From: Morganella morganii
Lineage (GTDB): Bacteria > Pseudomonadota > Gammaproteobacteria > Enterobacterales > Enterobacteriaceae
Length of the DNA: 64,000 bases
Direction of reading: 5' to 3'
NCBI RefSeq assembly: GCF_019243775.1
Contig: NZ_CP069157.1
Location: forward strand, 2,615,418 to 2,679,417
This document shows, in pieces, positions 5,970 to 12,817 of this stretch. The position numbers and the translations under genes are program-made. The first letter of the stretch is position 1. Every line of letters begins with the position of its first letter. The notes under the pieces were generated by a model that worked only from the letters and a program-made list of their open reading frames with translations, ran no database searches and was not told the DNA's origin.

Positions 5970-6776
<807 letters not shown>

Positions 6777-6783
6777 TCCGGTT

Positions 6784-7935
6784 TCAGCGGGCCGCCAGCT
6801 TATTGGCTGCCTGCCGCCATAACCACTCCACCGGCCCCTGAGAAAAATAACGCAGCCACAGGGTTGAGAACAGGATGTTGATCAGCCACATCAGCGGCAC
6901 AAATGCCAGCAGCGTCAGGCGATCAAACTGACTGAAATAACCGAGGTACTCAAACAGTATCACCCCGCACACCGATTGCAGCAGATAACTGCTCAGTGCG
7001 GTACGCCCGACCCGCTGTAAACAGGCGGCAACCGGTTTCAGCTGTGGCTGCAAACCATAAAACAAAGCAATAAGCCCGGTAGTCTGTACCGGCTGCAAAA
7101 TATCCGCCAGCGGATAACCAACAGTGCCCATCCAGAAGACACTCCAGTCGTTCAGGTATTCCAGCCACATCACAACCGCCTGCAGCAGCAGTGACGGGAT
7201 CAGCAGCCACGCTGCCAGCCGCCGGTAATGAGACAGCGGATATGCCCCTTTCAGCCAGCCGTTTTTCATCAGTGTTGCGCCCAGCAGCATCATTGCCAGT
7301 AACTGCCAGCCATACTGAACCACCATCATCATCAGCATACCGCTGATGGTACTGATTCTGTCCAGCATGCCGGCAATACCACCGGTGTCGGCGATCAGTA
7401 CTTCATAATCCAGCATTTCCTGCGACGGCTGCCAGTACAACAGTTTCAGCTCACCACCTTCCGATAACAGGAAAAACAGTAAAAACAATCCGGTCAGGAT
7501 CAGCACCGGCACCAGCTTCAGCCACCAGCGGGAGGAAACATTATGGATGATCCAGCAGGCGGCAACGCCGGTCAGGCTGTACATCAGCAGGATATCCCCG
7601 TCCCAGAGCAGAGCGGTATGCAGCAGCCCGATCACTCCAAGCACCAGTAACCGCGCCATATTCCAGGGCTGGCTGTAACGGCTGAGCATCATCAGAGTGG
7701 CACCGAACAGCAGTGCAAACATGCCGAGGAATTTCCCCTGCACCAGCACACTTAATACTGCCCAGGTGGCGATATCTGTTGCGGACGCCGCCGGGGTGTA
7801 CAGCGGGTTCAGATAGGCCGCAGACGGCAGCGCGAATCCGCCGATGTTCAGAATAAAAATACCGAGGATGGCCAGCCCCCGCACCATATCGAGGACATCA
7901 ATACGGGCAGAGGCAGATGTGACTGAAGTATTCAT
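6784..7935 (-). CDS. yeiB: DUF418-family polytopic membrane protein YeiB
   Basis: A 383-residue inner-membrane protein with about ten hydrophobic helices. It has the N-terminal DMVRGLAILGIFILNI motif and a C-terminal DUF418 domain including the PLMWLINILFSTLWLRYFSQGP stretch. Related proteins are in the acyltransferase-like/DUF418 group; the function is not established. It starts 3 bases after the folE stop, so folE-yeiB is an operon, as in E. coli. Confidence 0.9.
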   Translation of the reverse strand: MNTSVTSASARIDVLDMVRGLAILGIFILNIGGFALPSAAYLNPLYTPAASATDIATWAVLSVLVQGKFLGMFALLFGATLMMLSRYSQPWNMARLLVLGVIGLLHTALLWDGDILLMYSLTGVAACWIIHNVSSRWWLKLVPVLILTGLFLLFFLLSEGGELKLLYWQPSQEMLDYEVLIADTGGIAGMLDRISTISGMLMMMVVQYGWQLLAMMLLGATLMKNGWLKGAYPLSHYRRLAAWLLIPSLLLQAVVMWLEYLNDWSVFWMGTVGYPLADILQPVQTTGLIALFYGLQPQLKPVAACLQRVGRTALSSYLLQSVCGVILFEYLGYFSQFDRLTLLAFVPLMWLINILFSTLWLRYFSQGPVEWLWRQAANKLAAR

Positions 7936-7938
7936 CCG

Positions 7939-8598
7939 TTAAATATGACGGGCCGCGCGCAGGAATTCCTGGCGGGTATTCTGGCTGGATTTAAATAACC
8001 CGCCCAGTGAGGTGGTGGTGGTGGTACTGGTTGCGTCACGGATGCCGCGCGCTTTGACACAATAATGCACCGCGTCAATGGATACCGCCACATTAGTGGT
8101 GCCGAGCAGCGTTTGCAGTGCCAGAAGAATTTGCTGTGTCAGACGTTCCTGAACCTGCGGGCGCTGGGCAAAGAACTGCACAATGCGGTTAATTTTCGAT
8201 AACCCGATAACGGTGTCTTTCGGGATATAAGCAACGGTGGCTTTACCGTCGATAGTGACAAAGTGGTGTTCACAGGTGCTGGTCAGCGTGATATCACGGA
8301 CCGTCACCATTTCATCCACTTTCATTTTATTTTCAATCAGGGTGATTTTCGGGAAATTGTGATAATCCAGTCCTGAAAAAATTTCATCCACATACATCTT
8401 CGCGATACGTTTCGGGGTATCTGCCAGACTGTCGTCGCTCAGGTCGAGATTGAGCAGCTTCATAATTTCTGTCATATGCGCTTCAATCTGAACCTTGCGG
8501 GTTTCCGGCGGCAGTGTCTGCTCCCGCAATGGTGTCTCCAGCCCGCGTGCGATGAGCGCGGCGTGGACAAGTTCTGCTTCCCGGCTTAATGATGACAT
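7939..8598 (-). CDS. folE: GTP cyclohydrolase I
   Basis: Opens GTP to 7,8-dihydroneopterin triphosphate, the first step of folate synthesis. It has 219 residues. The zinc/catalytic region TSTCEHHFV and the distal cysteine in VHYCVKARG are present, as is the [11 protein letters not shown] stretch. The AGAAGG ribosome site supports ATG 8598. It is the first gene of the folE-yeiB unit. Confidence 0.97.
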
Positions 8599-8762
8599 AC
8601 CTTCTCCGACTATTTTTCAGGTGACTCCCGGTGCTGTGTTGCACCCGTCGGCCGGTCAATACCCGCCGCCCTGCTATTTTAGAGCAATACACCGTTTTGT
8701 TAATCCATTTTGTGGTTTTGGTGATGAAAAGTTTGCACCGGAAATCCCTGTTAATAATGCGG

Positions 8763-8900
8763 ATATCAGCCGGAATGACGCTGACGAAAACATTTGCCGG
8801 AAAAATGCCGGATAACGGATGTGTTATATAACATCATAACGAAGACGGGAAATATCCTTATGATCAGCAAAAACAATTTCTTCATTGTTCCGGCTGATAT
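8763..8900. repeat. 13-bp perfect inverted repeat spanning the 3' end of the microcin-like gene
   Basis: ATATCAGCCGGAA at 8763-8775 is the exact reverse complement of 8888-8900. The second copy lies inside the small peptide gene and the first lies 49 bases beyond its stop. The role is unknown. Confidence 0.6.
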
Positions 8901-9012
8901 TTGAGATCATTACAGCACTGATATCAAATGCAATACCGGCGAACATCATTCCGGCAGAGATAAACCCTGCACCTGAAACGAACAATAATTGTTCCTGATT
9001 TAATTCTTTCAT
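8824..9012 (-). CDS. Small peptide with class II microcin-type (double-glycine-like) leader
   Basis: A 62-residue protein. The first 15 residues, MKELNQEQLLFVSGA, fit the leader pattern of class II microcins and related bacteriocins (M-x-E-L-x4-L-x2-VSG[GA]) that are cut after Gly-Gly or Gly-Ala by ABC exporters with C39 peptidase domains. The predicted core (residues 16-62) begins with a glycine/alanine-containing hydrophobic stretch (about 17-42) and ends in a polar, charged tail. There is no cysteine. A GAGAGG ribosome site lies 6 bases before ATG. It lies 14 bases downstream of a small two-helix membrane protein, the order seen in microcin V, L and N loci (immunity first). The region is AT-rich and no exporter gene is in the window. 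A new bacteriocin is inferred, not shown. Confidence 0.55.
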   Translation of the reverse strand: MKELNQEQLLFVSGAGFISAGMMFAGIAFDISAVMISNISRNNEEIVFADHKDISRLRYDVI

Positions 9013-9026
9013 AATTAACCTCTCAA

Positions 9027-9248
9027 TTATTCAAATATAAAATACAGTATCTTTTTTGTCAGAACATAAAACCCCACATAAATAACAGGGGTGAGAAAGA
9101 CATCGGTCATCACATTGTCCGGTCTGACAATGCGCAGTGAGGAGTGCGTTACTGTCAGAGATGTCAGTATCATGCTGATACTCATGGACCACAATCGTAT
9201 ATCTTTCAGATCATTGATTACCTTCTGAAGAAAATTGTTCTTTCTCAT
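9027..9248 (-). CDS. Small membrane protein, candidate immunity protein
   Basis: A 73-residue basic protein with two predicted membrane helices (about residues 19-37 and 50-70) separated by a short polar loop, with a lysine-rich N-terminus. No family is recognised. It is read immediately before the microcin-like peptide gene, with a 14-base gap that holds the peptide's ribosome site, so the pair is probably one transcript. Immunity proteins of class II microcins are small membrane proteins encoded just upstream of the toxin, which is the basis for the suggestion. Its own ribosome site is weak. The AT-rich composition suggests acquisition. Confidence 0.5.
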   Translation of the reverse strand: MRKNNFLQKVINDLKDIRLWSMSISMILTSLTVTHSSLRIVRPDNVMTDVFLTPVIYVGFYVLTKKILYFIFE

Positions 9249-9377
9249 CGGGAATAACTGCCCTGTTATATTTCAGAATAATGACTTTATGCCCTGAAAA
9301 TTAAATAAAGCATAAACAGGCTAAGTTATAAAACCGTTTTTTTAATTATCCGTTTTTTATTTTTAATGAATAATAAA

Positions 9378-9411
9378 GATAACAGGATTAATAAATAATA
9401 ACCCTGTTATC
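9378..9411 (-). terminator. Weak hairpin at the 3' end of the MFS gene
   Basis: GATAACAGG (9378-9386) and CCTGTTATC (9403-9411) are perfect complements with a 16-base loop overlapping the MFS stop codon. On the minus strand it is followed by a T-rich stretch. It could terminate the MFS transcript or be an operator for the small genes downstream. Confidence 0.35.
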
Positions 9412-10591
9412 ACTGAGATAATGATTCTTTTATATCGCTGCGGTCACGGAAAACCAGCAAACCACCGATAATCAGTGCTGCAAAGGCCACCCACAGCGCC
9501 GGTTCCAGTTTACCGGTAAAATACGCGGAGACAGAGGATACCAGCGGGCCGCCGAGCTGCCCGACGGCATACCAGGTGGTCAGCAATCCGGCCATATAGC
9601 GGCCGTGCTCCGGTGCCAGTTCGCGTCCGCACTGGAATACCAGCTGGACCGCAGCCATCAGGCCGCCGCCGACCAGAAAAGCACTGACTGCCAGACCACT
9701 GATCCCGGGCATGATTTCTGCCGCCAGAATACCCGCTGCCTGTGCCCAGAGAGTGATTGCCAGCCGCCGCTGCGGCGTGAAAAAACGCCGCGTGGCAATC
9801 GCGGCCACGATACCGGCGACTGCCGCTATCCCGAATACCGGCCAGACAAACTGAGCAAACAGGCTGCCGGGGAAACGCGCCGCCGCCATCTGTGATAAAA
9901 ACGTGGCAGGCAGAATATAGCCGAATCCGGCCAGCGCATAGCTCCACAATAAACGGCGGATTTTTGGTGTCATCCGCGGTTTACTGTGCGGGGAGGAGGA
10001 GCTGCTCAGTTCCCCCGGGCGCGGCAGATAGCGGCTGACATACAGACTGAAGAGCAGTGCCGCAGCACCATAGATCCACCAGCCCTGCGAGGCGGTCAGT
10101 GATAAGCCCTGAATGCCGATAGCTGCCAGTCCGCACAGCAGAATTCCGGTACCGGTGCCGCCGTAAACCGCGACACTCAGTGCCGGACGGTTAAGTTTTG
10201 CCAGTGCGTCATTGGTCCAGGCAGCTGCTAACACCAGTGTCCAGCCGCTCGCCCAGCCGATAAAAAAGCGCGCGATACTGTGCAGCACAGCCCCGGAAAT
10301 CACCGCTGACAGCAGTGTGATAATCACCGCGCCCCATAAACCGGTCCACAGCCGCAGCTCAATACCGCGTTTTGCCCGCATAGCATCAAAGGATCCGGCC
10401 AGATAGCCGAGGTAGTTCCAGGCAGCCACAATACCGGCAGTTGTCAGGTCAAGCTGGTGCTCGTCAATCATCAGCGGCACCTGCGGGGTAAAAGCAAAGC
10501 GCCCTATTCCCATGGCCACCACCAGCGCAAGAAAACCACTGACTGCAATATGAAGCGCCGTTGTCTGACGGGCGGAGTGAGATGTCGTCAT
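9410..10591 (-). CDS. YbfB/YjiJ-family MFS transporter
   Basis: A 393-residue inner-membrane protein with about twelve hydrophobic helices. The N-terminal GIGRFAFTPQVPLM and NYLGYLAGS motifs are typical of the YbfB/YjiJ branch of the major facilitator superfamily. The substrate is unknown. It is monocistronic and divergent from moeA, with about 200 bases between them. Confidence 0.85.
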   Translation of the reverse strand: MTTSHSARQTTALHIAVSGFLALVVAMGIGRFAFTPQVPLMIDEHQLDLTTAGIVAAWNYLGYLAGSFDAMRAKRGIELRLWTGLWGAVIITLLSAVISGAVLHSIARFFIGWASGWTLVLAAAWTNDALAKLNRPALSVAVYGGTGTGILLCGLAAIGIQGLSLTASQGWWIYGAAALLFSLYVSRYLPRPGELSSSSSPHSKPRMTPKIRRLLWSYALAGFGYILPATFLSQMAAARFPGSLFAQFVWPVFGIAAVAGIVAAIATRRFFTPQRRLAITLWAQAAGILAAEIMPGISGLAVSAFLVGGGLMAAVQLVFQCGRELAPEHGRYMAGLLTTWYAVGQLGGPLVSSVSAYFTGKLEPALWVAFAALIIGGLLVFRDRSDIKESLSQ

Positions 10592-10793
10592 ATGAAATGC
10601 AATATGTTAATAATTTGTAACTTCGTTATACCAAAAGAAGCCTTTAAAATGCAATAATGACTTCCGGAATCAGATCTGTTGCTCACGCTTTTGTGCCACA
10701 TCATTCAACTTGTGCTGTAAGTCTGCCATAATGCCCTTCTCTTTATTATCCGTTTTATCTGCGCCCAGCAGGCGCCGGGAGTGAAACAGCATC

Positions 10794-12044
10794 ATGGCTA
10801 ATCCGACAGAAAGTTACACCTCTTCGTTAATCTCTTTACAGGAAGCACTGGATAAGCTGCTCGCGACCCCGGCCGCGATCACCGGTACTGAAACAATCGC
10901 GCTGACGGATGCCGCCGGGCGGATCACTGCCACCCCGGTTATTTCGCCTATCAATGTACCGCCGTTTGATAATTCCGCAATGGATGGTTACGGGTTTCGC
11001 CTGTCCGACTGGGACGGAAAAACCCCGCTGCCGGTTGCCGGTCGCGCTCTGGCGGGTGTTCCATTCAAAGGTGAATTACCGGCCGGACAATGTGTCCGTA
11101 TTATGACCGGCGCACCGGTACCCAAGGGTGTGGATACCGTGGTGATGCAGGAAGAAGCGAAAGTGTCGGATGCCGGAATTACCTTTACCGCCGGAATTAC
11201 CGCCGGGCAGAATATCCGCCGTACTGGTGAGGATATCGCGCAACACAGTGAAGTTTTACCGGCAGGCACCAAACTGGCCGCCGCCCAGCTGCCGCTGATT
11301 GCCTCCCTCGGTCTGGCGGAGCTGTCCGTGGTGCGCAAACTGAAAGTGGCGGTGTTCTCCACCGGTGATGAATTGCAGGCGGTCGGCCAGCCGCTGGGTG
11401 ACGGACAGATTTATGATACCAACCGCTTTGCGGTTCGTCTGATGCTGGAAAAGCTCGGTTGTGATGTGATTGATCTCGGCGTGATCCCGGATAATCCGGA
11501 CATTCTGCGCGCCACTTTTGAGAAAGCCGATGCACAGGCGGATCTGGTGATCAGCAGCGGCGGCGTGTCTGTCGGCGAAGCGGATTACACCAAACAGATT
11601 CTTGATGAAATCGGCAAAATTAATTTCTGGAAACTGGCGATCAAACCGGGCAAGCCGTTTGCTTTCGGTAAGCTGAATAACGCCTGGTTCTGCGGTCTGC
11701 CGGGCAACCCGGTCTCCACCACTGTTACCTTTTATGAGCTGGTGCAGCCACTGATCGCGCGTCTGTCCGGCTTCAGCCAGTGGCAGCCACCGATGCGGTT
11801 TAAAGCCGTCGCCACCACGCCGCTGAAAAAATCCGCCGGTCGTCTGGATTTTCAGCGCGGTATTGCCGGGGTGAATGAACAGGGTCAGATGGTGGTCAGA
11901 ACCACCGGCGATCAGGGCTCGCATATTTTCAGTTCATTCAGCCTCGCCAACTGCTTTATTGTGCTGGAGCGTGAGCGCGGTGCGGTTGCCGCCGGTGAAA
12001 CCGTTGAAATCGAGTTTTTTAACCATTTACTGAAGAATGACTGA
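10794..12044 (+). CDS. moeA: Molybdopterin molybdenumtransferase MoeA
   Basis: Inserts molybdenum into adenylated molybdopterin to form Moco. It has 416 residues with the standard MoeA domains. The [12 protein letters not shown] motif, the MoCF-binding domain STGDEL near the middle, [11 protein letters not shown] and the CGLPGNPVS motif are all present. The stop codon shares an A with the moeB start (TGATG), so the pair is translationally coupled. The other Moco genes in the window are moaACDE and modABCEF. Confidence 0.97.
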
Positions 12045-12817
12045 TGGCGACTGAACCCGGACATATTGAGCTCAGTGATGAGGAAGCGCTGCGTTATAAC
12101 CGGCAGATCGTGCTGCGCGGCTTTGATTTTGATGGTCAGGAAGCGCTGAAAGCCGGGCGGGTGCTGATCACCGGCCTCGGCGGACTCGGGTGTGCGGCAG
12201 CGCAGTATCTGGCGGCGGCGGGCGTGGGGCATCTTACGTTGCTGGATTTTGATACCGTGTCGCTCTCCAATCTTCAGCGTCAGATCCTGCATACCGATGC
12301 CCGTATCGGGATGGCAAAAACAGAATCCGCCGCGATTGCGCTGAAAGCCGTCAATCCGCATTGCCATACCGAAACCGTTACCAAACAGCTGGATGATGAT
12401 GAGCTTACCGCTCTGATCCGGTCTCACCATGTTGTACTGGACTGTACCGATAATGTCGCCGTCCGCGAACAGCTTAACCGGGCGTGTCATCAGTTGAAGA
12501 TCCCGCTGGTGTCCGGTGCCGCTATCCGTATGGAAGGACAGATTTCTGTCTTTACCTGGCAGGAGGGGGAACCCTGTTACCGCTGCCTGAGCCGGTTATT
12601 CGGGGAGAACAGTCTGACCTGTGTGGAAGCGGGTGTGATGGCACCGCTGGTCGGTACCATCGGCACCCTGGAGGCGATGGAGTGCATCAAACTGCTCACC
12701 GGCTACGGGCAGGTGAGCAGCGGAAAAGTGGTGCTGTTTGATGCGATGCGCATGCAGTTCCGCACCATTAATCTTAAGCCTGATCCCCAGTGCGAGGTGT
12801 GCGGCTGTAACGGATAG
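12044..12817 (+). CDS. moeB: Molybdopterin-synthase adenylyltransferase MoeB
   Basis: Adenylates the C-terminal glycine of MoaD so that it can be sulfurated for molybdopterin synthesis. It has 257 residues and an E1-like fold with the ATP-binding [13 protein letters not shown] motif, the LQRQ segment, and the zinc cysteines of CYRC and the C-terminal CEVCGC. The N-terminus is about five residues longer than E. coli MoeB. Its last 44 bases overlap the 3' end of codA on the other strand. Confidence 0.97.

Follow-up and report, generated by a model that had tools for sequence, protein, structure and literature searches.

A candidate microcin-type precursor and immunity gene pair of Morganella, presumably exported in trans

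Two small minus-strand ORFs occupy an AT-rich islet of the Morganella morganii chromosome, with folE (7939-8598) on one side and a YbfB-type MFS gene (9410-10591) on the other. Do they encode a microcin and its immunity protein, even though no export gene adjoins them? The window, that is the whole stretch of 64,000 nucleotides analyzed here (NZ_CP069157.1, positions 2,615,418 to 2,679,417), belongs to a genome assembled as a single contig of 3.81 Mb. A sequence-only reading had proposed that the islet is an uncharacterized microcin cassette that borrows an exporter from elsewhere in the genome. Our analysis supports this proposal well, and we give a probability of about three in four to the pair being a stand-alone class II microcin-type precursor and its immunity gene, exported in trans. 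The features are as follows, with positions counted in the window; genomes and loci are designated by G and L numbers.

9027..9248, minus strand: small membrane protein of 73 aa, putative immunity protein, upstream member of the pair (ORF, conservation, relatives in microcin-type clusters)
8824..9012, minus strand: predicted double-glycine precursor of 62 aa, downstream member of the pair (ORF, homologues within the genus, dN/dS)
8968..9012, minus strand: leader MKELNQEQLLFVSGA, codons 1-15 of the precursor (leader matrix, profile alignments, best-conserved part)
8824..8967, minus strand: core of 47 aa and stop codon (computed; predicted cleavage after Ala15)
9019..9024, minus strand: ribosome-binding site GAGAGG of the 62-aa peptide (sequence; identical in four genomes)
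9249..9377, minus strand: upstream region, presumed promoter of the pair (about 80% invariant columns vs 75% in the ORFs, four genomes)
9378..9411, minus strand: terminator-like hairpin between the pair and the MFS gene (terminator scan)

The layout described by the sequence-only reading stood up to inspection. The 62-residue frame has a good ribosome-binding site and begins 14 bp after the end of the 73-residue frame. Furthermore, the islet is indeed AT-rich, with a G+C content of 0.32-0.44 in the four 400-base segments starting at 8600-9200 and 0.48-0.62 in the other segments of 6000-12599. Two terminator-like sites were found in the region against 0.7 expected, the second one lying inside the 73-aa gene, and a promoter scan returned three sigma-70-like sites against 3.6 expected, none within 9249-9377. 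Neither protein had a match in Pfam or NCBIfam, and the islet DNA had none in the plasmids searched. In G003, the MFS neighbor is cut to a 42-aa N-terminal stub (L004 2122-2250) and the pair is intact.

The 62-aa peptide was found in 5 of 147 genomes, all Morganella; six Morganella genomes, including the source genome, were in this set. A contig scan returned four relatives of the pair, again all from Morganella, which correspond to G002-G005 and were not counted again. The pair adjoins folE in all five carriers. In the sixth Morganella genome (G001), neither protein was matched and other ORFs are located upstream of folE. We found no orthologue of the peptide outside Morganella in the 147 genomes, in 394 genomes of the order or in plasmids, where the precursor had no match. 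The peptide matches in 11 of the 394 genomes comprised that of the source itself, those of three genomes with leader peptides of another kind and seven that were chance-like on inspection.

The sequence-only reading had stated that it would be refuted by homologues lacking the leader pattern or by a lack of co-conservation of the two genes. Neither was observed, as the leader is kept in the congeners and the genes occur together in every carrier. The 73-aa protein is complete in four of the five and present as two interrupted parts in the fifth, M. psychrotolerans, in which the peptide is 45% identical and its frame is open. There, the 73-aa gene is broken by a 128-bp repeat (L005 1793-1920), which leaves M. 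psychrotolerans without an intact copy at this site. Seven more near-full copies of this repeat (124-128 bp, 83-92% identity) were found in four loci belonging to M. psychrotolerans and G001 (L034, L035, L036 and L112). A repeat search of the G005 region found none.

Both frames are kept in the four M. morganii-type genomes, with a 6-bp in-frame indel in one of them. Among these genomes, dN/dS was 0.26-0.48 for the peptide and 0.11-0.52 for the 73-aa protein (six pairs each). The four pairs of peptide genes involving G005 gave 0.21-0.39, a rough estimate because dS exceeded 1, and folE gave 0-0.02 (10 pairs). Divided by part, the peptide showed pairwise values of 0-0.23 for the leader, its best-kept part (10 pairs), and of 0.28-0.70 for the core (nine pairs, one being undefined). 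Third codon positions were the most variable, with 29 of 55 variable columns in the 73-aa gene and 23 of 46 in the peptide gene; codon phase was taken from the start codons, and both spans open two columns before the start codon. The peptides of the five genomes measure 62, 62, 62, 64 and 64 aa and retain a C-terminal EIVF block. Their leader reads MKELNQEQLLSVSGA or close to it in three congeners and MKELNNHQLLSVSGS in the most distant one, and it ends in GA in four genomes and in GS in M. psychrotolerans.

To score the leader, a matrix was built from 20 exporter-linked Morganella precursors (19 distinct leaders), which had been picked by a motif filter near seven complete exporters in five genomes; the 62-aa peptide was left out. 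It scored 23.5 bits, the best of 1865 start codons in the window (those of ORFs of 30-160 aa), and the next scored 3.9. This value is lower than those of the training leaders (31.3-43.0), and the M. psychrotolerans homologue scored 17.4. A profile comparison of the precursor family with two exporter-linked families gave 85.9% and 93.0% for an alignment that spans the leader and the start of the core. Furthermore, when a leader profile was run on six genomes, the peptide was found in the source genome with an E value of 0.003; outside the exporter locus, no other match in that genome fell below 0.01. Class II leaders of 15-18 aa end in GG or GA; the present one has 15 aa and ends in GA, a pattern kept in congeners. 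It also has the Leu, Leu and Val described for class II leaders at positions -12, -7 and -4 (PMC11494933). Together, the conserved frames, the dN/dS values and the top leader score show that the pair is more than a product of chance, the peptide being under purifying selection.

Could the leader likeness be accidental, with the pair forming an operon for small membrane proteins of some other kind, for example toxin-antitoxin-like or related to envelope stress? The shortness of the operon and the small size and hydrophobicity of both products would fit. Yet the match covers all 15 residues, which are the best-conserved part of the peptide, the genome encodes a matching kind of exporter, and proteins related to the partner are encoded in microcin-type clusters. 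We therefore regard an accidental likeness as the least probable explanation of all.

The predicted core has 47 aa (5.24 kDa), a net charge of about -2 and no cysteine. As the sequence-only reading had noted, it is shorter than known class II microcins, and it falls outside the 60-90 aa range given for the cores of verified ones (PMC10233263). The peptide ends in RLRYDVI and lacks the serine- and glycine-rich C-terminus that marks class IIb (siderophore) microcins (PMC10233263). An AlphaFold model of the precursor showed one helix (residues 6-41) with a mean pLDDT of 57, too poor for use.

Class II clusters contain export genes, and here the neighbors of the pair are folE and the MFS gene. The sequence-only reading had placed the exporter elsewhere in the genome, and we located a fitting candidate. 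The source genome has a single C39-domain match. It belongs to an ABC exporter of CvaA/CvaB type (880204-882318) whose gene follows that of an HlyD-family adaptor, on the same chromosome and 1,741,926 bp (1.74 Mb) from the pair; TolC is also present. The exporter has the residues Cys32, His105 and Asp121 that the authors of cinful require of a CvaB-type exporter (PMC9746304), and its C39 part matched the AMS/PCAT protease 6mpz at 1e-22. On these residues and this alignment, we rejected the possibility that the protein is merely a peptidase-less haemolysin-type exporter. A 91-aa precursor whose leader reads MKELSHAEIELVSGA, followed by GC, is encoded 0.6 kb ahead of the adaptor. A second exporter-linked leader in the source genome (G000:C1:878686-878733; L029 6687-6734) is a 21-codon stub before a stop.

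Exporters are complete in four of the five carriers of the peptide. The remaining carrier, G002, gave no C39 match, and the possibility that it lacks an exporter was set aside. It contains two exporter pieces (97% and 93% identity) that cover only the C-terminal end and stop exactly at contig ends, which makes an assembly gap likelier than absence.

Several of these observations could also be expected if the pair were what is left of a larger, decaying microcin locus after the loss of its exporter and of part of its precursor: the core is short, the exporter is not nearby, M. psychrotolerans has an interrupted 73-aa gene, and the second exporter-linked precursor of the source genome is a 21-aa stub. 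However, both frames, the C-terminal EIVF block and the approximate length of the peptide are kept in five genomes, and variation is greatest at third codon positions. We thus give very little credence to decay.

The 73-aa protein had been described as a two-helix membrane protein. One helix held up, as Kyte-Doolittle averaging over 17 residues revealed a clear hydrophobic segment (1.61, from residue 46), but the other was only weak (1.35, from residue 17). A first search for relatives matched 8 of 147 genomes; the matches in G013 and G108 contained stops in the matched frame and were discarded. Profile A2 gave 21 matches in 394 genomes, of which all except that of the source were weak (best E value 0.011) and were not retained.

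More informative relatives came from plasmids. A tblastn search of 72,556 plasmids returned nine Klebsiella records, a weak match in itself (42% over 52 residues, E value 0.02), and hhalign aligned the 73-aa protein to the Klebsiella protein with a probability of 96.5%. The latter has two clear hydrophobic segments (1.99 and 2.48). Its gene lies in a cluster that encodes, in order, CvaA, a C39 exporter, an unannotated double-glycine precursor, the 68-aa relative and a CPBP protein. When the Klebsiella protein was used as the query, 18 plasmids were matched and the precursor was found in 17 of them, including two partial copies, CP054991 being the plasmid with the relative and no precursor match. 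An Ewingella plasmid also encodes an unannotated relative, which is the sole ORF of at least 40 codons on its strand between precursor and adaptor. This relative is 89.6% identical to the protein of G543, an Ewingella-like genome and the one genome in which the family profile gave an E value of 2e-4. In current records, the Klebsiella precursor and 68-aa protein (L104 2525-3165) and the 67-aa Ewingella relative (L138 2998-3204) are mostly unannotated or labeled hypothetical. A Serratia plasmid carries a further relative, with no recognized precursor in the stretch examined. The precursor of L130 had no match in plasmids.

Profile A7, made by adding the Klebsiella and G021 proteins to the 73-aa family, matched 14 of 392 genomes, namely the five Morganella carriers and nine others, among which G021 matched by construction. 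In three of these nine (G543, G561 and G741), a precursor is located directly upstream of the relative; the cluster runs on into CvaA and CvaB in G543, and a CvaA-like match accompanies it in G561. No precursor was found within about 1.5 kb of the relative in the other six (G008, G021, G510, G537, G544 and G591). The match in G008 is probably spurious, since it contains a stop and overlaps a 617-codon frame. By sequence homology, the 73-aa protein belongs with the two-segment, immunity-like proteins encoded in the Klebsiella and Ewingella clusters.

The CPBP genes nearby bear on a role of this family in immunity. An ORF of G561 presumably encodes a CPBP-like protein, judging by a sequence motif. 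Because of this ORF and of the CPBP protein in the Klebsiella cluster, the small protein may act there as an accessory protein or provide additional immunity. In the Ewingella stretch, no CPBP gene is annotated, which speaks for an immunity role of the small protein. The verified immunity protein of microcin S is a CPBP protein (PMC3316575). The 73-aa protein itself has no CPBP (Rce1-like, PF02517) domain, as it had no Pfam match. Immunity proteins encoded next to class II microcins are described as having 51-216 aa and as usually located in the inner membrane (PMC9746304).

The pair is not the only source of such leaders in Morganella. In G005 (L034 2872-6379) and in G001 (L035 10937-14421), six related double-glycine precursors of 93-101 aa each time form an array next to an exporter of CvaA/CvaB type. 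Furthermore, at least 14 leader-bearing small ORFs are scattered over 12 loci away from exporters in G001, G002, G004 and G005 (L107, L109-L114, L116-L118, L121 and L122). Among 19 other Morganella precursors that were examined, including the exporter-linked one of the source genome, none had an ORF of at least 50 aa with a transmembrane segment within 200 bp upstream. The pair is therefore unusual, and not every substrate need be a toxin.

These scattered peptides bear on a different function, in which the 62-aa product would be a double-glycine-exported signaling peptide rather than a killer and the 73-aa protein its receptor or an accessory protein. The short core would suit a signal, as would the retention of the peptide in M. 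psychrotolerans with an interrupted 73-aa gene. The scattered peptides, at least 14 in 12 loci, also leave room for substrates other than toxins, since those examined have no transmembrane gene of 50 aa or more in the 200 bp upstream. However, relatives of the 73-aa protein adjoin microcin-type precursors in Klebsiella, Ewingella and other genomes, and the core (0.28-0.70) is held more loosely than the leader (0-0.23), unlike what we would expect of a receptor-bound signal. A signaling role is thus unlikely, if less so than decay or an accidental likeness.

For the microcin-type reading, computation shows conservation, a leader match, TolC and an exporter with its catalytic residues, and microcin-type clusters elsewhere contain relatives of the 73-aa protein. 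Against it stand the short core, the remote exporter, the leader score under the training range and the interruption in M. psychrotolerans, along with the six of nine outside relatives lacking a precursor nearby, the 19 precursors lacking an upstream transmembrane ORF, the CPBP protein in the Klebsiella cluster and the lack of a promoter-like site. Under this preferred reading, the 62-aa product would be a precursor with a 15-aa double-glycine leader. The remote CvaA/CvaB-like exporter would recognize the leader and cleave it after Gly14-Ala15, and together with TolC would secrete the 47-aa hydrophobic peptide. The secreted core would then inhibit related bacteria, with the inner membrane as the probable site of action. 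Protection of the producer would fall to the 73-aa membrane protein, whose gene comes first in a presumed shared transcript. The pair would work like a class II microcin, but its core size and cluster make-up depart from strict membership of that class.

Among known systems, the pair resembles by description microcin L (class IIa), having a small upstream membrane protein, a double-glycine leader and no siderophore-type tail. The immunity protein of microcin L has 51 aa and two potential transmembrane segments and is encoded just upstream of mclC (PMC6795089). In contrast, the core of microcin L has 90 aa (PMC10233263) vs 47 here, and class IIa microcins, microcin L among them, are all described with export genes in the cluster (PMC3316575), whereas here the exporter is remote. 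The exporter-linked Morganella precursors (families A5 and A6) come from the same genus and have the same kind of leader, but they are glycine-rich, measure 90-101 aa and align with the 62-aa peptide no further than the leader and the start of the core. In the Klebsiella (OW967760.1) and Ewingella (NZ_CP048244.1) plasmid clusters, a protein related to the 73-aa one is encoded next to a double-glycine precursor, as here. They differ in that the relative follows the precursor and the export genes are in the cluster; moreover, their precursors are longer (119 and 105 aa, respectively), with a core unrelated to the 62-aa peptide.

Locus L136, which from its gene order we take to be microcin PDI, lies on an E. 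coli plasmid from sheep faeces. It contains an unannotated double-glycine precursor and a small hydrophobic ORF (1918-2505), followed by CPBP, HlyD-family and C39 exporter genes in the order seen in microcin PDI. In microcin PDI (mcpM, mcpI, mcpA, mcpD, mcpB; PMC5311971), a small membrane protein is also in the immunity position beside a double-glycine precursor, but no homology was detectable between the 73-aa protein and the small protein that occupies the mcpI position in L136 (hhalign probability 0.5%).

A broader picture is conceivable, to which we give somewhat less than even odds. Morganella may have a dispersed microcin repertoire in which scattered stand-alone precursors rely in trans on one or two CvaA/CvaB exporters. 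The pair would then be a conserved member equipped with immunity. Its core would be shorter than that of any verified class II microcin, and its immunity protein would belong to an unrecognized family shared with Klebsiella and Ewingella plasmid clusters. According to PMC9746304, the verified class II microcins number ten, the published searches begin from similarity to these ten, and the cinful pipeline takes immunity candidates from the genes nearest a match. Cassettes of the present kind would escape notice more easily, as the core has 47 aa, the exporter is encoded at a distance of 1.74 Mb and the putative immunity protein is covered by neither Pfam nor NCBIfam. Microcin matches were reported in 6.7% of Morganellaceae species (PMC9746304); the passages concerned leave the species unnamed, and the present locus may be among them. 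In a literature search combining Morganella with microcin or bacteriocin, titles and abstract openings mentioned no Morganella microcin among the matches listed. A putative colicin cluster, which is of another kind, is mentioned in one M. morganii strain (PMC11153084). If active, the pair would provide a peptide that is small and apparently unmodified, together with an immunity family open to testing, and whether one exporter serves remote substrates would become a directly testable question.

Leader-bearing small peptides were also observed in another family of the order. G226, G454 and G462, with genomes of 2.6-2.9 Mb, encode peptides with the leader MKELN..EVEQVSGAG in L041, L044, L047 and L048, and these peptides are paired in L041/L048 and in L047.
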